DNA of 27,605 nucleotides. It comes from a virus. The position numbers were made by a program, and so were the translations under genes. Each line of letters opens with the position of its first letter. Position 1 is the first letter of the stretch. The notes beneath the pieces were generated by a model that made no database searches, was not told where the DNA came from, and worked only from the letters and a program-made list of their open reading frames with translations. Below, piece after piece: positions 1,898-24,062 of this stretch. The stretch is from IMG/VR virus record IMGVR_UViG_3300040806_001064, positions 1 through 27,605 of that record, one strand, 5' to 3'.

Positions 1898-3439
1898 CTA
1901 AGACTCCTCTAGTTCTTTAAGTTTATCCTCTTCTGCATCAGTAAAAACACCATCATCATGTGTAACTTCTTCTGTAGTTGTAGATTCATCTACTTCAAAA
2001 AGATTATCAAAATACGTTTGTGCATTAACAGTCTTTTTACCAATTGCTCCTCTAGTTCCTGGTATAGACATCCAGAATCTTGAAAACTCTTCAACTACCG
2101 CGTTTGCTGTGTCTCTGTTGTCAGTTGCAAATATTGCTTCCACAATATCTCTAAAAAACAACCTGTCAAAGCGTTCTTCGACAAGCATCGCAGGAACTCT
2201 TCCCGCATCATATTCTCTGTTTGCTTCTTGTACTGCATTAATGTGACTCCATACATTATGACCCATTTGGATCGCATAAGAAAAACTATCCCATGATGTT
2301 TTTCCTTCTTTACCTATTTTATTTAGGTCGCCTGGTGCATAGATACAAATATCTTTTGCTTGAAGATTTGCTGTAATTGGCGAATCTTTAAAACTACTAT
2401 GCTTACCTTCTCTTACAAATGCTTGACTAAACGGAGTTGTATCAGTTGCAAATGCCTTATTATCAATACTAGGCACCATTCTGTACACCCACTTTTTTCT
2501 ATCCTGTGTTTCAAGTTCACAATAAATTTGACCATTAGCAGTTGCTAAGAACGGACTAGCACAGTCAAATGTAATCATAAAGTTTTCATTATGATACTTT
2601 CGAACTGCTCTTTGAATGTCAGTTAGTAGTGTCGCCCATTCTAGTTTTGATGTACCCAAGAAGTGCATTACATCATGTAAACCTTTTTCAAGTAATCCAT
2701 CAAATCGTAATGCTACTAGACGTTTAAGTACTAGATGCACATCACACATATTCTGACCACCCATTGACCACCCATTAAAGTGATCTGTATATTTCTTAGG
2801 ATCGCAGTAGTCTTTCATCTGCTGGTACCAATCTTCTGCGTCAGCGTGATTTTCACCTTGTAGTACGTTTAGGAACTTACAAGCACCTGTACGATTCTTC
2901 ATAAAGTAATCGTTATTAATGCGTGTAGCATTTACAGCATCTTGATAGTTGTCAATACCTGTTGCTTTTGCACCAGCAGGTGAACGTGCCACCCAAGCCG
3001 GAATATCAAGGATCATTCCATAGTCCATATAAGCATCCATCCACGCAAGAACTTGTTCACGTTTCTTTTTTGCTTTAGGACAATTAGGATCTTTCCAATC
3101 ACCTTCCCATACGCCCTTACCAATCTGGAATCCACCCGAGTCACCTAACAACCAACTGTTGTTACGATCTCTGTTACGGATCATATCTTCTTTAGGTGCG
3201 TCCTTGTTAATATCAAGTTCTGCGTGTCCTGCGGAATATAGACTCCATTGATAATTGAATAGTCCTTTTTGTTTGTTAAACCAATTAAGACTTTCCATTT
3301 CGTTGTTTGGAAAAGGAATACGACTTTTGTCTACGTATTCTTCACGACGTTGCTTACCGATAAACGTAGCATAGAAGCCACTAATTGCCGGAAGAAAGGT
3401 TGCGTAGTCTTTTTGTTCTTTTGTTAAGTCGGTATTCAA
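1898..3439 (-). CDS. dpdA: tRNA-guanine transglycosylase-like protein, DpdA type (DNA 7-deazaguanine insertion)
   Basis: 513 residues. Signature elements of the TGT fold appear in the right order: GDSGGFQIG around Asp100 (TGT has DSGGFQ with the first catalytic Asp), LNVLQGE at 190-196 (TGT: GIVQGG), WSMGGQN at 224-230 (TGT: AIGGL), HFLGTSKLEW at 259-268 (TGT: YLMGVGTP), and MITFDCASPF with Asp292 at the place of the nucleophilic Asp. The C-terminal zinc cluster of bacterial TGT (CxCxxC) is not visible, as expected for the divergent DpdA group. Phage DpdA proteins exchange guanine in DNA for 7-deazaguanine bases and so protect against restriction. The start is TTG at 3439, preceded by AGGAG. 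The last 30 residues are acidic and low in complexity. Whether the substrate is DNA rather than tRNA is inferred from the phage context and length. Confidence 0.8.
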   Translation of the reverse strand: MNTDLTKEQKDYATFLPAISGFYATFIGKQRREEYVDKSRIPFPNNEMESLNWFNKQKGLFNYQWSLYSAGHAELDINKDAPKEDMIRNRDRNNSWLLGDSGGFQIGKGVWEGDWKDPNCPKAKKKREQVLAWMDAYMDYGMILDIPAWVARSPAGAKATGIDNYQDAVNATRINNDYFMKNRTGACKFLNVLQGENHADAEDWYQQMKDYCDPKKYTDHFNGWSMGGQNMCDVHLVLKRLVALRFDGLLEKGLHDVMHFLGTSKLEWATLLTDIQRAVRKYHNENFMITFDCASPFLATANGQIYCELETQDRKKWVYRMVPSIDNKAFATDTTPFSQAFVREGKHSSFKDSPITANLQAKDICIYAPGDLNKIGKEGKTSWDSFSYAIQMGHNVWSHINAVQEANREYDAGRVPAMLVEERFDRLFFRDIVEAIFATDNRDTANAVVEEFSRFWMSIPGTRGAIGKKTVNAQTYFDNLFEVDESTTTEEVTHDDGVFTDAEEDKLKELEES

Positions 3440-3657: not shown

Positions 3658-4386
3658 TTACTTGGTTTGTGCAGGAAGAATATAATTGTATTCTGCCAAA
3701 CCACTGTCAACAGTAAGTTGCATAGCACCCTGATCGGAAATGCTCATAGTAACCTTACCATCTAAGTTTAAAATTGCTTGTACCTGTGCTACAGGCCAAG
3801 ACCATGAATGCTTCAGTGTAGTATTAACATCTGTTGCAAACACAAAAGTACCAGCGTGTGAACTTGCATCACCAAAACTAAACACTAGATTAGTACCATC
3901 TGTTTTAACACTAAACACATTTTCTTCTGTGTGTGCCGCACTCATTAACTTCATACGCTGAATAGCCGCGATTGATGGCTCAACTACAACGTCCCAAGCC
4001 GCACCTTTAAACTTAACAGTCTTAAGTTTCTCTTCGATGATTTGCTTATTCATAAAGCGATAATCATTTTCAAAGTCGCCTGTTGCATTTTCAAAGTGAA
4101 TATGTGTTGGAACTGTTTCGCCGTTGCGGTCTGCTTCAACTACATCAATCTTAGCATCCTTTTGATACTCTGGATTCTTTAAGTGCAATGCTAACTTTTC
4201 TAAATTAGGCATACCAAATGTGCCTTTAAATTCACTAATTGGTGTTTTAGTTTGCGAACTTAAAATCACTGAACGATCTTCTGCCATTGATTCGATACTA
4301 GTATCGGTTTCGCTTGTTACCTTCACAATGTTAAGAAAACCTAACGAATGTGTGTGGGCAACGATGTCTTGTAAAATGTCTTTCAT
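3658..4386 (-). CDS. 45: DNA polymerase sliding clamp (gp45-like)
   Basis: 242 residues, close to T4 gp45 (228 aa). The overall pattern matches gp45 proteins of marine T4-like phages: an N-terminal helix (LQDIVAHTHSLGFLNIVKV), the strand segments SVILSSQTKTPISEFKGTFG and MPNLEKLALHLKNPEYQKD, a central linker, and C-terminal beta strands typical of ring clamps. In T4 the trimeric clamp tethers gp43 to DNA and also activates late transcription by contacting gp33 and gp55. Here it lies four genes downstream of the polymerase. It has its own strong sigma-70-type promoter and an AGGAG SD just before the ATG. Its start overlaps the stop of the epimerase gene by 4 bp. Confidence 0.85.
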   Translation of the reverse strand: MKDILQDIVAHTHSLGFLNIVKVTSETDTSIESMAEDRSVILSSQTKTPISEFKGTFGMPNLEKLALHLKNPEYQKDAKIDVVEADRNGETVPTHIHFENATGDFENDYRFMNKQIIEEKLKTVKFKGAAWDVVVEPSIAAIQRMKLMSAAHTEENVFSVKTDGTNLVFSFGDASSHAGTFVFATDVNTTLKHSWSWPVAQVQAILNLDGKVTMSISDQGAMQLTVDSGLAEYNYILPAQTK

Positions 4387-9397: not shown

Positions 9398-9668
9398 TTT
9401 GTGCCTTATCATCTATCCATATATCGTAATGAGGTTTGCCAAATCTTAAACTGTGATATTTGACGCCCCATTTGTTAAGTTGCCTAATTGTAAATTCTTC
9501 CCAGTCCTTGCCTGAGTTTGCGCCTCTTGCTGTCCAGTAATGTATTTCATTGCCTTGCTCATACAGTTCATTAAAATGTTTAATTCTTTCAGCATCAGGT
9601 TCACTAATTTCATATTTACTGTTATTATTATAGCAAATTGTTCCATCAATGTCAACCATATATTTCAC
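9357..9668 (-). CDS. HAD-superfamily phosphatase-like protein
   Basis: 103 residues with a minimal HAD core: MVDIDGTIC (D-x-D at residues 5-9), HYWTARGA (motif II Thr), and a motif IV region in GKPHYDIWIDDKA (D-D). No cap domain. Such short HADs occur next to sugar or nucleotide genes in phages and capsule clusters; the substrate is unknown. In T4-like phages, small HADs may also act as polynucleotide 3' phosphatases, but the kinase half is not here. It lies 1 bp downstream of the next gene and overlaps the membrane protein gene. Confidence 0.8.
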   Translation of the reverse strand: MKYMVDIDGTICYNNNSKYEISEPDAERIKHFNELYEQGNEIHYWTARGANSGKDWEEFTIRQLNKWGVKYHSLRFGKPHYDIWIDDKAQNDKEYFKTIKNST

Positions 9669-10644: not shown

Positions 10645-11067
10645 CTATTCTCCTTTGTAAGCGTCTAGTGTTTTTTGAAATTTACCTGCGTGTGATTTCT
10701 CTGCTTTTGCAAGTGTTTCAAACCAGTCAGCAATTTCTTCAAAGCCTTCGTCTCTGGCTGTTCTTGCCATACCTGGGTACATATCTGTGTACTCATGGAT
10801 TTCACCTTTGATAGCAGATAAAAGGTTTTGCTCTGTATTACCCATAGGTTCGCCAGTTGCTGGATCACCTACTTCTTCTAAGTATTCTAAGTGACCGTGT
10901 GCGTGACCTGTTTCACCTTCTGCTGTGCTTCTAAATACCTGTGCTACTTCATTAGCACCTTCGATATCTGCTTTTTGAGCAAAGTATAAGTATCTTCTAT
11001 TTGCTTCTGATTCGCCTTGAAAAGCGGCTCTTAAGTTGTCTTTTGTTTTGCTGTCTTTTAAGTTCAT
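10645..11067 (-). CDS. Rubrerythrin-like (erythrin) di-iron protein
   Basis: 140 residues of a four-helix ferritin-like domain. Di-iron ligands are in place: Glu19 ([11 protein letters not shown]), Glu52 and His55 ([11 protein letters not shown]), a Glu in [11 protein letters not shown] (about 89-97), and Glu123 with His126 ([10 protein letters not shown]). The rubredoxin CxxC domain of full rubrerythrins is absent, so it is of the short 'erythrin' type. Bacterial homologues reduce hydrogen peroxide using iron. In a phage it might protect against oxidative stress or handle iron during infection. It has its own near-consensus promoter and AAAAGG SD, and leads a short operon with the DsbA-like gene. 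Confidence 0.9.
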
Positions 11068-11855: not shown

Positions 11856-12506
11856 TTAGGTATCGAGGGTTTCGTCTTTTGACTTGTATGCCCAATCGTC
11901 AGTATGACCCACTGACCATTTTGGTGTGTTTTCTACAGTGTAGTTTTGAGTGCATACTTTGAAGTCTGGAGTTTTAGCACTTGGGTTTACAAGACTTTGA
12001 TCAGTCCAAACAATTCTATTATTTGGTTGAGCGGCAAACTGTCCATTGTCAAGTTTAATAACATTGAATGTTTTGTGTTCGGGATCGTGTTCTGAAAAGT
12101 TTGTGTTAAGAGTATTGTTATCTCTGTGGCAACTATCAATAGTAAATACATATTCTCCTTTATGCATTTTTCTATCTTTACCAAAGAATTCACAGTCGCA
12201 TAACATAGGCTTTTTAATTACTGTAATGTCGTAATCAAAGCAATCCCATATTTGTAGTGTATCTAATGGAAGTTGATTATCTTTATCGTAATCTTCTTTC
12301 CATACAAATGCTGAAATAGGTAGTTTGTCGTATAATGCACCGTATTCTGTTAGCAATGTTTCAAAGTAGAATGCTCTACTTTCAATGCTTTTTACAGATA
12401 TCCATATGCCTGGAGTAAGTTCACCGTGACCTTTTTGGTGATCGTAGAGGTATTCTTTCTTTACGTATACTTCGACGGGTGGTAGATTATGCACTAAAAA
12501 AGACAT
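11856..12506 (-). CDS. Conserved hypothetical protein of marine T4-like phages (216 aa)
   Basis: 216 soluble residues starting MSFLVHNLPPVEVYVKKEYL. Characteristic pieces are HGELTPGIWISVKSIESRA, FYFETLLTEYGALYDKLPIS and DTLQIWDCFDYDITVI. I recall closely similar proteins in cyanophage and other marine T4-like genomes, always without a function. Mostly beta, acidic, no signal peptide. A late promoter box lies 30 bp upstream and GAGGA serves as SD, so a late role (virion or assembly) is likely but unproven. Confidence 0.8.
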   Translation of the reverse strand: MSFLVHNLPPVEVYVKKEYLYDHQKGHGELTPGIWISVKSIESRAFYFETLLTEYGALYDKLPISAFVWKEDYDKDNQLPLDTLQIWDCFDYDITVIKKPMLCDCEFFGKDRKMHKGEYVFTIDSCHRDNNTLNTNFSEHDPEHKTFNVIKLDNGQFAAQPNNRIVWTDQSLVNPSAKTPDFKVCTQNYTVENTPKWSVGHTDDWAYKSKDETLDT

Positions 12507-17988: not shown

Positions 17989-18330
17989 CTAATGGTTTAA
18001 CAAGATACTATTAATAGTGCCATCAGTGTACACTACTTTTGCTCTTAACCAAACAAAGTTACCTGTAAAGTTAGCAAATTTGCTTGCTGTTTCTTGTGAT
18101 GCTGTATATGTGTCCACACTAAACCAATCAGATTCTGTTGGTTCAGTTGCTAAAGTTCCTTGGATACTAATAGTTCCAGTTAGACCGGAAACGTTATACT
18201 GTACAGTATGAATACCGTCAGCACGACCGTAGTATCCGTCACCTTTAAACTTCTCACCCGTGATAGTTTCTACAGTACTATCTCCTGGGTGTGTATTTGC
18301 TGATAAAATTATTTCACTATTACTTGGCAT
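17989..18330 (-). CDS. Beta-rich probable virion protein (113 aa)
   Basis: 113 residues, Thr/Ser/Gly-rich and almost all beta strand: GIHTVQYNVSGLTGTISIQG, then DWFSVDTYTAS and TGNFVWLRAKVVYTDGTINS. The pattern looks like a small decoration or fibre-associated domain of the type common in phage virions, a judgement from composition only. A late box (GATAAATA) lies five bases before the ATG; no SD is visible. Confidence 0.7.
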   Translation of the reverse strand: MPSNSEIILSANTHPGDSTVETITGEKFKGDGYYGRADGIHTVQYNVSGLTGTISIQGTLATEPTESDWFSVDTYTASQETASKFANFTGNFVWLRAKVVYTDGTINSILLNH

Positions 18331-18335
18331 ACAAC

Positions 18336-18343
18336 TATTTATC
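18336..18343 (-). promoter_or_regulatory. Late-type box GATAAATA directly before a start codon
   Basis: GATAAATA between the clpA stop and the ATG at 18330, five bases from the ATG. There is no purine-rich SD, unlike the similar sites at 13137 and 13970, so a leaderless late transcript is a real possibility here. It marks the border between the early clpA cassette and the late block. Confidence 0.5.
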
Positions 18344-18347
18344 AGTT

Positions 18348-20600
18348 CTATGCAGTTACAGTTTGTTTTTCAACAACAACATCAAGGTTAATTTTACCTT
18401 CTTTAGCATCAATATTTAAGTGACCGCCGTTCTTAAGATCGCCGAATAATAAGATTTTACTTAAATCTTTCTTAATTTCTTTATCAATAACACGCTGTAA
18501 AGGTCTTGCACCCATCTTACGATCAAACCCTTTATCTACTAGATAATCAATAGCATCATCAGTAACAGTAACAGTTACATTTTGTTCAGTAAGCATTTCT
18601 TTAAGTTCAACTAAAAACTTACCTACAATTTTAATCATTGTATTCTTTTCAAGATTACCAAATTTTACAACACCATCTAATCTGTTACGGAATTCTGGAG
18701 CAAAAAACTTTTTAAGTTCTGTATCTTCATACTCACGTTCGTCTTCTTCGCCAAATCCGATAGTATTCTTTTCTGCTTCAATAGCACCTAAGTTTGTTGT
18801 TAAGATCAGTACACAATTTTTACCGTCTGCTTCTTTACCATTTGAACCTGTAATTTTACCATTGTCCATAAGTTGTAGTAAGATTTGTGAAACATCTGGA
18901 TGTGCCTTTTCAATCTCATCAAGTAATAGTACACAGTTAGGATGTTCTTGTAATTTTGTAATCAATAAGCCTGCATTGTCCTCAAATCCTACATATCCTG
19001 GAGGTGAACCAATTAACTTTGCCACCGAATGTTTTTCTTGATACTCTGACATATCAAAACGTACAAGTTTAACACTGAGTTGATCTGCAAGTTGTTTTGC
19101 TGTTTCTGTTTTACCAACACCTGTTGGACCCATGAATACAAATGAACCGATTGGTTTTGTATCAGGTTTTAATCCTGCTTGAGCAACAAGAATCTTATCT
19201 ACAATATCATCGATTGCAGAGTCTTGGCCAAATACAACTTTCTTAAGATTGCCTTCAAGAGTTGCTAGGTTACTTGTTTCTTTTTGTTGTACTTGCTCTG
19301 GCGGTAGATTTACAACTTTAGCAAGTTCAAACTGGATTTCTTCTTTACCAACAATCTTATCGCCTTCAACTTTCTTTAAGTTAAATCTTGAACACGCTAA
19401 GTCAATCAAGTCAATTGCTTTATCTGGCAACTTCTTATCTGCTTGATACTTGACACTTAACTTAATTGCAGTATCAATTGCTTCTTCTGTAATAGTTGTT
19501 TTATGGAATTCTTCGTAGTATTTTTTGATACCTTCTAAAATACTTTTAGTTACACTTGCAGTAGGCTCGCCTACTGTAACTCTTTGGAATCGACGCATTA
19601 ACGCACGATCCTTTTCAAAGTACTTTCGATACTCTTCCCAAGTAGTTGAAGCAACAACTTTAATATCACCTTTACCTAATGCTGGCTTTAGCATATTAGC
19701 AAGATCATTTGAATTGCCCTGGCCGCCGGCACCAGCACCGTTAATCATGTGTGCTTCGTCGATAAACATAATAGTCTTGCCTTGCTTTTTAATACCAGCC
19801 ATAACAAGTTTAAAACGTTCTTCAAAATCTCCGCGATACTTACTACCTGCAAGCATAGCACCAATATCAAGGTTATAAACTTTATATTCTTGTAAAAACT
19901 CCGGCACTGCTTTGTTTACAATATTCCAAGCAAGTCCTTCTGCAATAGCAGTTTTACCAACACCTGGATCACCTACTAGTAACACATTGTTCTTTGAACG
20001 ACGTCCTAGTGCAAGTGCAATAGTTTCTAATTCATCAGTTCTTCCAATTACAGGGTCAACATTATTCTTGGCAACTTCTGAATTAAGGTCAGTTGTAAAC
20101 TCACGTAATGCTTTTTGACCAAGTGTACGCATTTCTTCATCTTCGTATGCGTTATCTACTTCGCTATTAAGATACTCTGCAAATTCTTCTTTTTTAATTC
20201 CTGCTTTTTGAATGTAGTAGTATGCAAAACTTTTCTTTTCATTAAGAATACTTAGGAATACATCTGTAACTTCAATATGGTGACGTCCATTAAACAGAAC
20301 TTGTGTAAACGCTCTATTTAGAACACGTTCTACTGTTGCAGTCTTTTTAGGTTTAAACTTTTTATTTTCTGCTTCAACAGGTAAAGTAATATCTTCTAAT
20401 TCATTCTTTAAATAATTTTCAATATTCTTTTTAATAAATTCAGGATCAGCACCTACACCTGCAATTAAGTTACAGAAATTATCTGAACAGAGCATTGCAA
20501 AAAGAACGTGTTCAAGAGTTACATACTCGTGATTAAGTTTCTTAGCATCGCTAACTGATTTATCAAATACCGATTGTAGTTCGTCGCTTGGTTCAACCAT
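18348..20600 (-). CDS. clpA: ClpA-like AAA+ unfoldase
   Basis: 750 residues, nearly the length of E. coli ClpA (758). An N-terminal Clp repeat domain (about 1-145) is followed by AAA module 1 (Walker A GDPGVGKT 210-217, Walker B IMFIDE 277-282, RRF arginine region near 336-338) and AAA module 2 (GPTGVGKT 491-498, LLLDEIE 558-564, FRNRLD 637-642). There is no ClpB-type middle coiled coil. NTIGFGEED at 612-620 carries the I-G-F tripeptide at the position of the ClpP-docking loop (IGL in E. coli ClpA). No ClpP or ClpS gene is present in this window, so it may pair with host ClpP. Overlaps the PDF stop by 8 bp; belongs to the dnaJ-def-clpA transcript. Confidence 0.92.
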   Translation of the reverse strand: MVEPSDELQSVFDKSVSDAKKLNHEYVTLEHVLFAMLCSDNFCNLIAGVGADPEFIKKNIENYLKNELEDITLPVEAENKKFKPKKTATVERVLNRAFTQVLFNGRHHIEVTDVFLSILNEKKSFAYYYIQKAGIKKEEFAEYLNSEVDNAYEDEEMRTLGQKALREFTTDLNSEVAKNNVDPVIGRTDELETIALALGRRSKNNVLLVGDPGVGKTAIAEGLAWNIVNKAVPEFLQEYKVYNLDIGAMLAGSKYRGDFEERFKLVMAGIKKQGKTIMFIDEAHMINGAGAGGQGNSNDLANMLKPALGKGDIKVVASTTWEEYRKYFEKDRALMRRFQRVTVGEPTASVTKSILEGIKKYYEEFHKTTITEEAIDTAIKLSVKYQADKKLPDKAIDLIDLACSRFNLKKVEGDKIVGKEEIQFELAKVVNLPPEQVQQKETSNLATLEGNLKKVVFGQDSAIDDIVDKILVAQAGLKPDTKPIGSFVFMGPTGVGKTETAKQLADQLSVKLVRFDMSEYQEKHSVAKLIGSPPGYVGFEDNAGLLITKLQEHPNCVLLLDEIEKAHPDVSQILLQLMDNGKITGSNGKEADGKNCVLILTTNLGAIEAEKNTIGFGEEDEREYEDTELKKFFAPEFRNRLDGVVKFGNLEKNTMIKIVGKFLVELKEMLTEQNVTVTVTDDAIDYLVDKGFDRKMGARPLQRVIDKEIKKDLSKILLFGDLKNGGHLNIDAKEGKINLDVVVEKQTVTA

Positions 20601-21114
20601 GTGTTAAAAATTCCTTATATTTTTTTAATAATTTTTGTTGTTTTTTCTTAGCCATATCTAGTTTAAGTTTACTTACACGGTCAATATAGTTAATACCGTA
20701 TAAGTGGTCAAACTCATGTTGAAAGATTCTAGCATTCCAGCCTGTAAACTCTATTGTACATTCTTTTGCGTTACTGTCAATGAACTTTGCTACCAAAGCC
20801 TGGGCTCGTGTTACTTTAAAAAACAAACCCGGAAAACTTAAACAGCCTTCTTCACCTGTAACTTTTTCTTCAGACACTGCTTCTATTGTAGGATTAATAA
20901 TAGCAAACGGCTTATCATATCCTTCAAGACCTTCTGGCTCCATTACAAAAATTTTAGCATCTAACCCAACTTGATTAGCACTTAGACCAACACCTTTGTG
21001 CTTGTCCATAATTTCAATCATCTGCTTTTCAATGTCTTTTGCATCAAGTTTATCAAAGTCAAATGGTTTAACTTCTTTGTCTAACCATTCATTTGGATGA
21101 TATACTAATTTCAT
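20593..21114 (-). CDS. def: Peptide deformylase
   Basis: 173 residues with all three PDF motifs: GVGLSANQVG (41-50), EGCLSFPG with the metal ligand Cys91, and QHEFDHL with His133, Glu134 and His137. It removes the formyl group from new proteins. Some marine phages carry PDF, often shortened; this one is near full length, with a basic C-terminal helix (KLKLDMAKKKQQKLLKKYKE) which in bacterial PDFs helps ribosome binding. ATGA coupling with dnaJ. Confidence 0.93.
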   Translation of the reverse strand: MKLVYHPNEWLDKEVKPFDFDKLDAKDIEKQMIEIMDKHKGVGLSANQVGLDAKIFVMEPEGLEGYDKPFAIINPTIEAVSEEKVTGEEGCLSFPGLFFKVTRAQALVAKFIDSNAKECTIEFTGWNARIFQHEFDHLYGINYIDRVSKLKLDMAKKKQQKLLKKYKEFLTHG

Positions 21115-21947
21115 TTAATTTTCCTAATTAATTCAAGTTGGTCTTCAGTAAGATTTTTTGTAATCTCTCCGTTAATTTTTAAGTAAATGTTGCCTGATAA
21201 TCCAGTATTGTAATCAGGTAGTCCGTGTCCTCGAATACTCATTACAGTTCCTGGCTGTGTGCCTCTTGGTATGTTTATACTTATAGTTTTTCCGTTAGGT
21301 ATATCTAAATTTGTGGCTGTTCCTAACATTAAATCGAACACATTGATTTTAATGTCAGTATGCAAGTTAAAGCCGTCTACATTGAAGTTTGGATGTCTAA
21401 GTATTCTAATTTTAACATTTAAATTACCTTTTGGTAAATTTGGAATACTATCATCTCCTAGTCCTTGATAACGTATAGTATCTCCGTGCCTTGCACCTTT
21501 TGGAATATCTATATTAACTGTTTGTTCTCGACCGGATCTTGTTTTAAAAGAGGCTATCACACCTTTACCGTTATATACATCTTCAAGTGAAATATCACAA
21601 GCAATAGTAACATCAGCATTTTGTTGTCGCTGTCTACGTTGTTGAAACCCTCCACCAAAAAATGTAGAAAACAAATCATTTACATCACCATCAAACTGGA
21701 ACCCGCCAGGTCCTCCAAAACCTTGTTGTTGGAATCCTGCTTGTTGTGGATCAGCAGTTCCAAATTGGTCGTACATTTGTTTCTTTTGTGGATCTTTTAG
21801 TGTTTCGTAGGCTTCTTTTATTTCAACAAATTTTTTCTGATCACCACCTTTGTCGGGATGATGCTGTGCCGCAAGTTTACGGAAAGCAGTTTTAATATCT
21901 TTTTCGGAAGCGTTTTTAGAAACGCCTAATAAGTCATAATAATCCAT
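21111..21947 (-). CDS. dnaJ: DnaJ/CbpA-type Hsp40 co-chaperone
   Basis: 278 residues. J domain with HPD (His30-Pro31-Asp32, in AAQHHPDKGGDQ), then a Gly/Phe/Gln-rich linker (GTADPQQAGFQQQGFGGPGG, LFSTFFGGGFQQRR), then two C-terminal beta domains (GARHGDTIRYQGLGDD, GTQPGTVMSIRGHGLPD). No CxxCxGxG zinc finger, so type II, CbpA-like. It stimulates DnaK; no DnaK gene is in this window, so the host DnaK is a likely partner. First gene of a three-gene cassette whose promoter places the start of the RNA at or next to this ATG; no SD is visible. Confidence 0.92.
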   Translation of the reverse strand: MDYYDLLGVSKNASEKDIKTAFRKLAAQHHPDKGGDQKKFVEIKEAYETLKDPQKKQMYDQFGTADPQQAGFQQQGFGGPGGFQFDGDVNDLFSTFFGGGFQQRRQRQQNADVTIACDISLEDVYNGKGVIASFKTRSGREQTVNIDIPKGARHGDTIRYQGLGDDSIPNLPKGNLNVKIRILRHPNFNVDGFNLHTDIKINVFDLMLGTATNLDIPNGKTISINIPRGTQPGTVMSIRGHGLPDYNTGLSGNIYLKINGEITKNLTEDQLELIRKIK

Positions 21948-21953
21948 AGCACT

Positions 21954-21982
21954 ATTATATACTTAGTTTAGGCGTTTGTCAA
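21954..21982 (-). promoter_or_regulatory. Perfect consensus sigma-70 promoter for dnaJ-def-clpA, probably leaderless
   Basis: TTGACA (21982-21977), 17 bp, TATAAT (21959-21954), then only six bases (AGTGCT) to the ATG at 21947. With the usual 6-7 bp from -10 box to start site, the RNA would begin at the A of the ATG. It lies in the 38 bp gap between dnaJ and the lysis region. Confidence 0.85.
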
Positions 21983-21985
21983 GTA

Positions 21986-22315
21986 TTACTTGTCTGACTT
22001 TTTGCTTGAACCTGTATAAAGACCAAACCAAGCCGCACCAGCACCAACTACGATACTAACCAAGCCTGATTGTTCCATTGTTGGATTAGGTAATTCCATA
22101 TACCAAACTACAACTTTGTATAATAGAACAATGTATGTTGTAATGAATACTCTTGGAAAAATTCTCCAACTATCAACTGCACGAGCCAAATGTATTAATC
22201 TTGCATATGGATTTGGTCCTAGATCTTTTACACTTGTGTCAACTTCTAATTCAACTGATACTTTTTTTGAAGCAGAATTTTGATCTGCTGGTACTACAAT
22301 CTTATCGTCACTCAT
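21986..22315 (-). CDS. Membrane protein, holin candidate (109 aa)
   Basis: 109 residues: a charged N-terminal tail of about 45, then two hydrophobic helices (IFPRVFITTYIVLLYKVVVW and SGLVSIVVGAGAAWFGLYTG) and a short basic end (SSKKSDK). The A-x-W-F-G-L-Y-x-x-G ending of the second helix is like putative holins of marine phages, as I recall. Position in the lysis region supports a holin or holin-associated role. ATGA overlap with the upstream gene at 22312-22315. Confidence 0.65.
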   Translation of the reverse strand: MSDDKIVVPADQNSASKKVSVELEVDTSVKDLGPNPYARLIHLARAVDSWRIFPRVFITTYIVLLYKVVVWYMELPNPTMEQSGLVSIVVGAGAAWFGLYTGSSKKSDK

Positions 22316-22596
22316 TTCTTTTTGCCCTCTAGTTTATCTAGACGAGACTCAATCTCGTCAATCTTTGAAGTTATCTTAGGATACTTTACACGCCAAGCAT
22401 TTGGATCATTTTGTAGCCAAGTCCAACCCCAACGTATTGCTAAGTATTCTAAGGTAGCATCAAACTTTTGTACGCCCCATGTTGCCATTCTTGTGTCTTT
22501 AAACCAGAACAAAAATGCGGCACCTAGTAATGACCCTGCAATACTAGTATAAATCCAAAGACGGTCGCCCGCCATCTGTGTAATCATTTCCCACAT
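22312..22596 (-). CDS. Single-pass membrane protein of the lysis region (94 aa)
   Basis: 94 residues: one N-terminal transmembrane helix (LWIYTSIAGSLLGAAFLFWF), a Trp-rich middle (WGVQKFDATLEYLAIRWGWT) and a C-terminal coiled coil (ITSKIDEIESRLDKLEGKKK). Preceded by GAGAGGG and a late promoter box, so it heads the last two genes of the lysis region. Could be a holin partner, antiholin or unrelated membrane protein. Confidence 0.65.
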   Translation of the reverse strand: MWEMITQMAGDRLWIYTSIAGSLLGAAFLFWFKDTRMATWGVQKFDATLEYLAIRWGWTWLQNDPNAWRVKYPKITSKIDEIESRLDKLEGKKK

Positions 22597-22620: not shown

Positions 22621-22628
22621 TATTTATC
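22621..22628 (-). promoter_or_regulatory. T4-type late promoter box GATAAATA
   Basis: GATAAATA on the minus strand, about 24 bp before the ATG at 22596. It overlaps the stop codon of the 24-residue frame. Confidence 0.6.
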
Positions 22629-22701: not shown

Positions 22702-22869
22702 TTAAAAATTACACTTAATATTGGCTTTAGGAGTTACGTTTTTTCTTATAGTTTCAGTGTCTGTAGGAAGACCATCTACATTAACACCAGGGTTTACCTT
22801 ACAACTAGATTTGTTAGCACAACTACTTAGAAGGAGTAGTATTAGTATCAGGCTTAACTGCGTCTTCAT
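22702..22869 (-). CDS. Small lipoprotein overlapping the o-spanin gene (55 aa)
   Basis: 55 residues in a frame shifted relative to the gene upstream. The signal peptide MKTQLSLILILLLLSSCANK carries the lipobox L-S-S-C at Cys17. The mature part is about 38 residues with two more Cys (KSSCKVNPG and IKCNF) and a Pro/Thr-rich middle, the size of lambda Rz1. It overlaps the 3' end of the lipoprotein gene at 22823-23203 by 47 bp, much as Rz1 overlaps Rz. No obvious SD. Could be an additional spanin component or an exclusion lipoprotein. Confidence 0.6.
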   Translation of the reverse strand: MKTQLSLILILLLLSSCANKSSCKVNPGVNVDGLPTDTETIRKNVTPKANIKCNF

Positions 22870-23203
22870 AATAAACAATAATTTGCTTTTGTTGTTCTAT
22901 GTATCTACGAAGTTCAGCAAAATTTAAAGATAGGTTTTCGTAGTCTTTTACACTGATAGCAATGTATGCGTCAGCGCCATTCTTGGCTTCAAATTCTTTT
23001 ATAAACTCTTCGTAGTTCTCTTTTGAAACCACATAGATCTTAACATCGTTCAGTTGAACCGGCTTAGGTTGTGCAACGATAGGTACTGTTGTTTTTACCG
23101 TATTAGTTACTGTTACTATCTTTGGTTCCGGAGTCAGTAGACTGCATCCCGTTGTCAGGAGCAGTGATAGACTCAAGATCATCCCATAACTTATTAGTCG
23201 CAT
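22823..23203 (-). CDS. Lipoprotein, putative outer-membrane spanin (o-spanin)
   Basis: 126 residues from ATG at 23203 (AAAAGAGA precedes it; an upstream ATG at 23221 lies in front but gives a less typical signal peptide). The signal peptide MRLISYGMILSLSLLLTTGC ends in the lipobox L-T-T-G-C at Cys20. After a Pro/Val linker (PEPKIVTVTNTVKTTVPIVA) come LNDVKIYVVSKENYEEFIKE and SVKDYENLSLNFAELRRYIE with EQQKQIIVYYE, a helical region. It overlaps the inner-membrane spanin gene by 101 bp in another frame, the typical i-spanin/o-spanin layout. In the lysis model the two link inner and outer membranes and fuse them. Confidence 0.75.
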   Translation of the reverse strand: MRLISYGMILSLSLLLTTGCSLLTPEPKIVTVTNTVKTTVPIVAQPKPVQLNDVKIYVVSKENYEEFIKEFEAKNGADAYIAISVKDYENLSLNFAELRRYIEQQKQIIVYYEDAVKPDTNTTPSK

Positions 23204-23528
23204 TTTGCATTCTCTTTTCAATCAAACCTGGCTTCTTGTTAGCCAAGTGTGTTAGATTATGTTTTTGTAGAGTAGCACGAAGTTCATCTCCATACTTCTC
23301 TGCTTTTTGTAAATCGGTACTTAGTTGCATATTCAACTCGTTTATACGTAAATTTTCTGATCTTTCAAGTTTAAGACTTGATTCACTAACCTCAAGGGCA
23401 ACTTCCATTTTTGCTACATTTGCTCTAGCAATCTCTAAGTTTTTTTGCAAGTTCTTAACATATAGGAAAGCACCTCCAGCAGTTGCTAGAAGTATTAAAA
23501 TCATTACAATTCGAATTGAACTAAACAT
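23103..23528 (-). CDS. Inner-membrane spanin (Rz-like, i-spanin)
   Basis: 141 residues: N-terminal transmembrane helix (IVMILILLATAGGAFLYVKN) followed by a long periplasmic coiled coil (LEIARANVAKMEVALEVSES, NELNMQLSTDLQKAEKYGDE) and a Ser/Thr/Asp-rich end. This type II topology with coiled coil matches Rz proteins. It comes 6 bp after the endolysin gene and overlaps the lipoprotein gene. Confidence 0.8.
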   Translation of the reverse strand: MFSSIRIVMILILLATAGGAFLYVKNLQKNLEIARANVAKMEVALEVSESSLKLERSENLRINELNMQLSTDLQKAEKYGDELRATLQKHNLTHLANKKPGLIEKRMQNATNKLWDDLESITAPDNGMQSTDSGTKDSNSN

Positions 23529-23534
23529 TCTTAA

Positions 23535-24062
23535 TTATTCAGCCATCTCAATTGCTTTTTCTTTAGTAGCATTTACTCTTGAAGTCCAACCGTTTCCAAA
23601 AGTTTTAAATGTTGCTAATGACTCGTAGTATTCTTGTCTAATTTTCGAATATTCATTAATTGCATTTGTAATGCCATTTGCTTCAACATAACCTTGTGCT
23701 TTAGAAATAGTGTTAGGACCAATCCAGCCATCTACTTTAGCACCAACCATCATTTGTAAAAACTTAGTTGCTCTGTGTCTTCCACTATTTACACACATAT
23801 CAAACACTGCAAGGTCTAAACCTTTAGGAAGGTCGTCAGCAAGAATGCCTGCCCAGTAATTCTTTTTATAAATTGGTGTTACGTCTACTTCTGTAAGATT
23901 TTTAATTTTTTCTTTAGTAACTACTTTGCCAAACCAATCTTCATAAGTTTGTTTAGTAATGCCCATATTAGTTGCACCGCCTGGGTCTTTAGGATGATCA
24001 ACGTAACCACCTTCGTGTTCAAGAATAACTCTTAAACAGTTTTTAAAATTGTCTTTTGCCAT
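23535..24062 (-). CDS. Endolysin, glycoside hydrolase family 108-type muramidase
   Basis: 175 residues. The GH108 signature is at the N-terminus: ILEHEGGYVDHPKDPGGATN with catalytic Glu17 (E-G-G-Y) and GITKQTY. Conserved helices follow (LPKGLDLAVFDMCVNSG, RATKFLQMMVGAKVDGWIGP, where D-G-x-x-G-P is the peptidoglycan-binding part). It cleaves peptidoglycan at the end of infection. No signal peptide, so a holin should be needed. GAGG precedes the ATG; a CATAAATA box lies about 150 bp upstream inside the next gene. Confidence 0.9.
   Translation of the reverse strand: MAKDNFKNCLRVILEHEGGYVDHPKDPGGATNMGITKQTYEDWFGKVVTKEKIKNLTEVDVTPIYKKNYWAGILADDLPKGLDLAVFDMCVNSGRHRATKFLQMMVGAKVDGWIGPNTISKAQGYVEANGITNAINEYSKIRQEYYESLATFKTFGNGWTSRVNATKEKAIEMAE

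Follow-up and report, generated by a model that had tools for sequence, protein, structure and literature searches.

The window analyzed here, positions 1 to 27,605 of the IMG/VR virus record IMGVR_UViG_3300040806_001064 and thus a 27.6-kb fragment of its phage genome, carries three overlapping genes for a J-domain protein, a peptide deformylase and a ClpA-like unfoldase. Gene order in related viruses indicates that dnaJ-(def)-clpA is a real and old unit of jumbo-phage-type myoviruses in aquatic and soil habitats. We consider it reasonably probable that the cassette is one transcription unit and acts as a proteostasis module that, in the clade of the window, is read early by the host RNA polymerase. 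The cassette comprises the following features:

21954..21982, minus strand: sigma70-type promoter TTGACA-N17-TATAAT (12/12 match) before dnaJ-def-clpA
21947-21111 (21111..21947), minus strand: dnaJ, 278 amino acids (aa), class-B-like J-domain protein, without Shine-Dalgarno sequence
21114-20593 (20593..21114), minus strand: def, 173 aa, peptide deformylase with a long basic C-terminal tail
20600-18348 (18348..20600), minus strand: clpA, 750 aa, AAA+ unfoldase with two rings, an N domain and the ClpP-docking IGF loop but without an M domain

The minus-strand open reading frames (ORFs) overlap by 4 bp between dnaJ and def (21111-21114) and by 8 bp between def and clpA (20593-20600), which bears out the tight coupling described in an initial annotation of this DNA. 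The names DnaJ, peptide deformylase and ClpA given there agree with our family searches (Pfam, NCBIfam), and the catalytic and docking motifs of all three proteins are intact in the window and conserved in relatives. Position 21982, the upper boundary of the cassette in that annotation, is the first base of the perfect TTGACA-17-TATAAT promoter.

As the initial annotation had proposed, we searched relatives for the order dnaJ-def-clpA. Two of the best 80 loci of a clpA-seeded IMG/VR scan are truncated on the upstream side of clpA, leaving 78. dnaJ lies immediately upstream of clpA in all 78; def is placed between them in 47 and absent in 31. With dnaJ as the seed, 40/40 untruncated viral loci are dnaJ-def-clpA trios, and with def as the seed, trios make up all 28 loci of one block (L143-L170, about 45% identity or more) plus three more distant loci, the majority of other phage deformylases lying outside trios. 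Because the three scans share contigs and contain near-copies, these counts do not represent independent events. Phosso, a Sinorhizobium phage, has dnaJ-def-clpA in the same order as the window, dnaJ and clpA are adjacent in Atu_ph07 and PA5oct, and GAP32 and Vibrio phage 2.275.O possess clpA without the other two genes. Rather than being scattered in relatives, the genes thus form a conserved unit, and the agreement of three seeds together with the distant phages rules out that the adjacency stems from chance or from near-identical contigs. Neither dnaJ nor def was found within 6 kb of clpA in 75 bacterial loci, ruling out a bacterial operon acquired whole.

The pairwise distances of ClpA, DnaJ and Def correlate (r 0.75-0.84, with no baseline from neighboring genes), consistent with joint inheritance. 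Several deep branches of the ClpA tree have def, which switches between presence and absence at least 14 times along the tree; this count does not distinguish gain from loss, and the pattern is best read as a slot that stays in place and from which def was lost repeatedly. In L043, a 358-kb phage, the cassette lacks def and a def is located elsewhere in the genome. The proposal that the trio forms a unit therefore stands for dnaJ-clpA, which is fixed, and the trio recurs, but def is optional.

The DnaJ protein matches Pfam DnaJ (6e-23) and DnaJ_C (1e-31). It consists of a J domain, a disordered glycine/phenylalanine-rich (G/F) linker (69-105) and the C-terminal domains (CTD) I and II. The HPD motif is present in the window protein and in nearly all aligned rows, and CxxCxG is absent from all 97 rows. 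An HPD-containing J domain, a G/F linker and CTD I/II without a zinc finger define class B (Hsp40 type II), and the protein resembles Hsp40s by sequence and by fold: the best Foldseek matches of its AlphaFold model (predicted local distance difference test score 82) are Thermus thermophilus DnaJ/Hsp40s. A class A DnaJ, the bacterial equivalog, was rejected owing to the missing CxxCxGxG zinc finger and a TIGR02349 score of 217 bits against a threshold of at least 377.

Def scores 8e-45 with Pfam Pep_deformylase and 132.9 with TIGR00079 (cut-off 103.95), identifying it as a peptide deformylase (PDF). The window protein contains the catalytic motifs GxGxSANQ, EGCLS and HExDH, of which EGCLS is found in 66/66 Def rows and HExDH in all except one truncated or gapped row; the viral PDFs of S-SSM7 and Vp16 have the same catalytic motifs (PMC5591237). 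Whereas the reported viral PDFs have shortened C-termini (PMC5591237), 72 of the 73 cassette Defs end in a long basic tail. The window Def aligns with plant and bacterial deformylases, its closest PDB entry being plant PDF1B (3cpm), aligned through residue 168. Tail length and this alignment rule out a short-tailed viral PDF (type 4 or Vp16-like, without the alpha-3 helix).

The Pfam domains of ClpA are AAA_2 (4e-54), ClpB_D2-small, AAA_lid_9 and Clp_N. The protein aligns end to end with Escherichia coli ClpA (1ksf, 638 bits) and has the ClpA architecture of an N domain and two AAA+ rings without an M-domain insert. Both Walker A/B pairs, the arginine fingers, the pore loops and the IGF loop (TIGFG) are present in the window, and the ClpP-docking loop [IVLM]G[FLYMI] is kept in 154/154 phage ClpAs checked. 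The missing M domain together with the IGF loop rules out a ClpB-type disaggregase. NCBIfam TIGR02639 is the best-scoring model, yet the score of 871 bits misses its equivalog cut-off of at least 993, and the window protein is separate from six bacterial ClpAs in a tree. Since the NCBI cut-offs for the ClpA and bacterial DnaJ equivalogs are missed, "ClpA-like" and "class-B J-protein" are the accurate names.

The -10 element of the dnaJ promoter ends 6 nucleotides (nt) before the dnaJ ATG, and in a check of 24 genes dnaJ, o113 and the i-spanin gene were without a recognizable Shine-Dalgarno sequence. The position of the -10 element and the lack of a Shine-Dalgarno sequence predict a leaderless dnaJ mRNA. 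Perfect sigma70 sites with a 17-nt spacer occur three times in the window (0.02 expected), all on the coding strand; the match at 9655 lies inside an ORF and was rejected as a probable coding coincidence. The cassette is surrounded by these features:

17989..18330, minus strand: o113, virion-structural-type protein (phrog_13657/14467; profile match to PA5oct gp185, 7e-24)
18336..18343, minus strand: GATAAATA, late-type promoter of o113, 5 nt before the o113 ATG; downstream boundary of the cassette
21986..22596, minus strand: o94 and o109, small proteins upstream of the cassette, membrane-type by hydropathy (one and two hydrophobic segments, respectively), with conserved gene order
22621..22628, minus strand: GATAAATA, late-type promoter before o94-o109
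22823..24062, minus strand: lysis genes for a GH108 endolysin, an i-spanin and an overlapping o-spanin

The lysis and virion genes flanking the cassette have GATAAATA-type (T4-late-like) promoters. Purely late expression was rejected for the clade of the window, where no exact TATAAATA consensus occurs, GATAAATA stands before the flanking genes and dnaJ has the perfect sigma70 site. To extend this analysis, we compared 84 distinct dnaJ upstream regions of relatives, counting as a sigma70 site any match of at least 10/12 ending 5-8 nt before the ATG. Such a site was found in 26 of the 84, 24 of them matching at least 11/12 (0.02% of shuffles), and it recurs with unrelated spacers in several clades, including the distant L162/L166. 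The other upstream regions show ATAAGTA-N5-ATG (37), GTAAATA (4), a hairpin with a Shine-Dalgarno sequence (6) or none of these (11). If def is missing and some 50-90 nt separate dnaJ from clpA, a sigma70 site of its own often stands before clpA, matching at least 11/12 in 13 of 30 def-less loci (0.3% of shuffles). Promoter type thus sets the cassette apart from its late-type neighbors, both in the clade of the window and in several further clades. Judged by these sequences, reading of the cassette by the host RNA polymerase early in infection is supported for the window clade, and pure late timing is possible in other clades, where "early" and "late" are what we infer from promoter type.

Further elements were seen at these promoters and gene starts. 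Before o113 (17989-18330), GATAAATA or CATAAATA occupies the same place with 5-nt spacing in essentially all relatives listed, and the arrangement GATAAATA-N5-ATG predicts a leaderless late mRNA. ATAAGTA-N5-ATG also precedes a ferredoxin-like gene (L095, L099, L102, L103) and a phrog_7084-type gene (L006, L007, L103, L106) and may therefore be a separate promoter class. In L108 (7960-8001), L109, L110, L118 and L120, a conserved hairpin at the dnaJ start encloses the Shine-Dalgarno sequence (AAAGGATTGCTTAAGGAGGATCCTTT), with one compensatory change in L118 (GGAT/ATCC to GCAT/ATGC); it is possibly an RNA thermometer or a translational operator. A similar element, TTGCTTAA, stands just before AAGGAG ahead of dnaK and hsp20 in L310 and L131.

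Partner proteins of DnaJ and ClpA are encoded by several cassette-bearing relatives. Intact ClpP is encoded by Phosso, by Atu_ph07 and by the L012, L033, L043, L056, L061, L164, L201 and L214 contigs; the catalytic Ser, His and Asp are in place, with L201 and L214 assigned by family score instead. ClpS is found in the L009, L012, L033, L043, L056, L078, L164 and L214 contigs and again in Phosso and Atu_ph07. The phage ClpS rows keep the N-degron pocket residues of E. coli ClpS. ClpA, ClpP and ClpS occur together in several relatives, for example the L043, L012 and L164 contigs, Phosso and Atu_ph07. As assembled, the 117-kb L009 and 365-kb L164 contigs contain a DnaK-Hsp20-ClpS cluster, and the L164 contig combines the trio with ClpP, ClpS, Hsp20 and DnaK. 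These two relatives encode DnaK, and most cassette phages searched are without a DnaK of their own; no GrpE was found in the 8 genomes searched for it. A dnaK-hsp20-clpS order followed by a gene that looks heme-oxygenase-like by eye is conserved in L131 (6948-10284) and L310 (9-3297). That the cassette adapts host DnaK and ClpP to the phage, as initially suggested, would tell only half of the story, given that several relatives encode a ClpP and ClpS themselves and, in two cases, DnaK.

The closest named systems share parts of this arrangement. The available sections of PMC6102473 list DnaJ (gp293), ClpA (gp292), ClpP (gp676) and ClpS (gp708) for Agrobacterium phage Atu_ph07 and already suggest a proteostasis role for these genes, without discussion of the adjacency of dnaJ and clpA. 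Atu_ph07 resembles the window in that clpA directly follows dnaJ, spanin-type genes come ahead of dnaJ and an o113 homologue lies nearby; it differs in that def was not found and a 73-nt gap with a sigma70-like promoter precedes clpA. Phosso (PV764938) differs from the window in a 1-bp overlap of dnaJ with the o-spanin gene and in the lack of a sigma70 box before dnaJ. In Pseudomonas phage PA5oct, phoH, two virion genes, dnaJ (gp187), clpA (gp186) and an o113-type structural gene follow in the same order as in the window, but def is missing, DnaJ is shorter (229 aa) and no sigma70 box lies near the dnaJ ATG. Sinorhizobium phage AP-J-162 has a deformylase (gp154) and DnaJ (gp155) with neighboring gene numbers in the accessible part of PMC11242549, which gives no account of the trio as a unit. 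Compared with the E. coli ClpAPS N-degron protease, the cassette phages have the ClpA architecture and docking loop, and the ClpP and ClpS of relatives have the expected residues; the cassette clpA differs in being phage-encoded, coupled to dnaJ and def rather than clpS, and below the NCBI ClpA equivalog cut-off. Phage DnaJ, ClpA, ClpP, ClpS and Def have each been reported, with suggested roles in proteostasis or assembly (PMC6102473, PMC11242549, PMC7824862, PMC12619734, PMC9723584). In the open-licence literature, we found no description of dnaJ-def-clpA as a unit, of its promoter or of the combined set with its partners, in line with the initial statement that each part alone is known in some phages and the trio is not known as a unit.

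We propose that DnaJ would deliver clients to DnaK, usually that of the host and sometimes a phage-encoded one, and that Def, through its basic ribosome-type tail, would deformylate the burst of nascent phage proteins at the ribosome. ClpA would unfold selected proteins and pass them to ClpP of the host or, in several relatives, of the phage, a feeding step that ClpS, encoded by many relatives, may partly mediate. The net effect would be to tilt folding and degradation in favor of the phage from early infection onwards. That the timing is early, that translation is leaderless, that the partners are bound and that the products act jointly is what we infer from the locus and its relatives. Formyl-Met can serve as a bacterial degradation signal (PMC4745127), and one may speculate that extra Def could shield phage chains while ClpA removes others. 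More tentatively, some jumbo phages might own a near-complete co- and post-translational quality-control line (DnaK, DnaJ, Hsp20, Def, ClpA, ClpP, ClpS) with the dnaJ-def-clpA operon as its conserved core, switched on by the host RNA polymerase as a leaderless mRNA, hence early, and replacing or out-competing the host chaperone and N-degron systems. Phage chaperone and protease genes have so far been catalogued singly, as accessories without a clear purpose. Their organization into a fixed dnaJ-(def)-clpA unit under its own host-type promoter, in aquatic and soil jumbo-phage-type viruses of different bacteria, turns them into one testable system, for which Phosso, Atu_ph07 and PA5oct offer cultivated models. 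It raises the question of an early takeover of protein quality control by large phages via the host's DnaK and ClpP or their own; cassette phages may bring much of this machinery with them.

Several observations weigh against an early proteostasis module. Early transcription, as first proposed, is supported for the window clade by its conserved perfect sigma70 promoter private to the block, but in roughly every second distinct relative dnaJ is preceded by an ATAAGTA box that resembles the late motif, and the Phosso genes run on from the spanins. The site between lysis and virion genes is compatible with a late role too, and def is dispensable within the unit. ClpP, ClpS and DnaK were seen in relatives and are not established for the phage of the window, itself a fragment; its nearest relatives among the fragments, of 156 and 80 kb, show neither ClpP nor ClpS, although absence from a fragment carries little weight. 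Some of these points suit a virion assembly or maturation module in which DnaJ and ClpA would fold or remodel structural proteins and Def would trim mass-produced capsid and tail proteins, the block sitting with virion and lysis genes because it acts with them. Virion genes (o175/o236 and o113) flank the block in the window, Atu_ph07 and PA5oct, dnaJ follows immediately on the spanin genes in Phosso and Atu_ph07, the ATAAGTA or GTAAATA boxes are late-promoter-like, and assembly roles have been proposed for phage DnaJ and ClpA (PMC7824862). However, the window-clade block has its own sigma70 promoter and the neighboring virion genes do not, clades that lack def have a sigma70 promoter immediately ahead of clpA, and the invariant ClpP-docking loop together with ClpP and ClpS in several phages points to degradation. 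We therefore regard an assembly module as rather unlikely.

It is still less probable that DnaJ hijacks or inhibits host DnaK and alters the sigma32 response, with Def and ClpA as passengers of an early transcript. The model for such a role is RB43 Rki, like the cassette DnaJ a phage J-domain protein, for which the accessible parts of PMC3486835 show early expression, DnaK binding and sigma32 stabilization; the lack of an own DnaK in most cassette phages searched would suit it as well. In the same parts of that paper no link of Rki to clpA or def is described, and Rki showed no generic co-chaperone activity, whereas the linker and the two C-terminal substrate domains are retained in the cassette DnaJ. 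The near-fixed dnaJ-clpA link speaks against passengers, and two relatives encode their own DnaK. A module that removed host defense proteins or acted as a decoy for them, for instance through degradation by ClpAP(S) or competition with the host DnaJ needed by bNACHT25, would fit the proposed early timing, and both this suggestion and the dependence of bNACHT25 on DnaJ are cited in PMC12619734. We think such a counter-defense role very improbable: no defense link was found, the PADLOC matches of ClpA seem to reflect no more than the general similarity among AAA proteins, for which reason the cassette was also rejected as a defense system, the other five proteins scanned had no PADLOC match, and Def would have no obvious role. 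Just as little can be said for three separate housekeeping helpers, each useful by itself, that stand under one promoter for convenience and do not act jointly. The many state changes of def, its location elsewhere in a genome and the many phages with clpA or def alone would agree with this, but the dnaJ-clpA adjacency is fixed in the clpA-seeded loci and def, when adjoining dnaJ or clpA, always occupies the same slot.

Upstream of the cassette, the window contains virion-type o175 and o236, the endolysin gene, the i- and o-spanin genes and the two small membrane-type genes; o113 follows downstream. In PA5oct, homologues of o175, o236 and o113 are arranged around dnaJ-clpA, and the o175- and o113-type products of this phage, the latter being gp185, are annotated as structural by tandem mass spectrometry. 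o94 and o109 lie between the spanin genes and dnaJ, and o109 is a holin candidate by topology only. The best named relatives of the window's DNA polymerase are those of Phosso and Atu_ph07, which places the phage near alphaproteobacterial jumbo phages. Hosts could not be taken from bins of metagenome-assembled genomes (MAGs): phage-like contigs are scattered over bins as different as Marinimicrobia, Pelagibacter, Rickettsiales and archaea, so binning is unreliable and no host is claimed. Among these, cassette-bearing phage-like contigs in bacterial and archaeal MAGs (genome_contigs loci L223-L227), one of 335 kb in a Marinimicrobia bin, are likely mis-binned phages.

Elsewhere in the window, a sliding-clamp identity of the gene at 3658-4386 was not borne out by family searches. 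A 513-aa protein (1898-3439) with a DSGGFQ motif is by eye reminiscent of tRNA-guanine transglycosylase/DpdA, with no Pfam or PHROG match. Redox-type accessory genes, a rubrerythrin gene and a PHROG-named ferredoxin gene, lie at 10645-11067 and 11856-12506.

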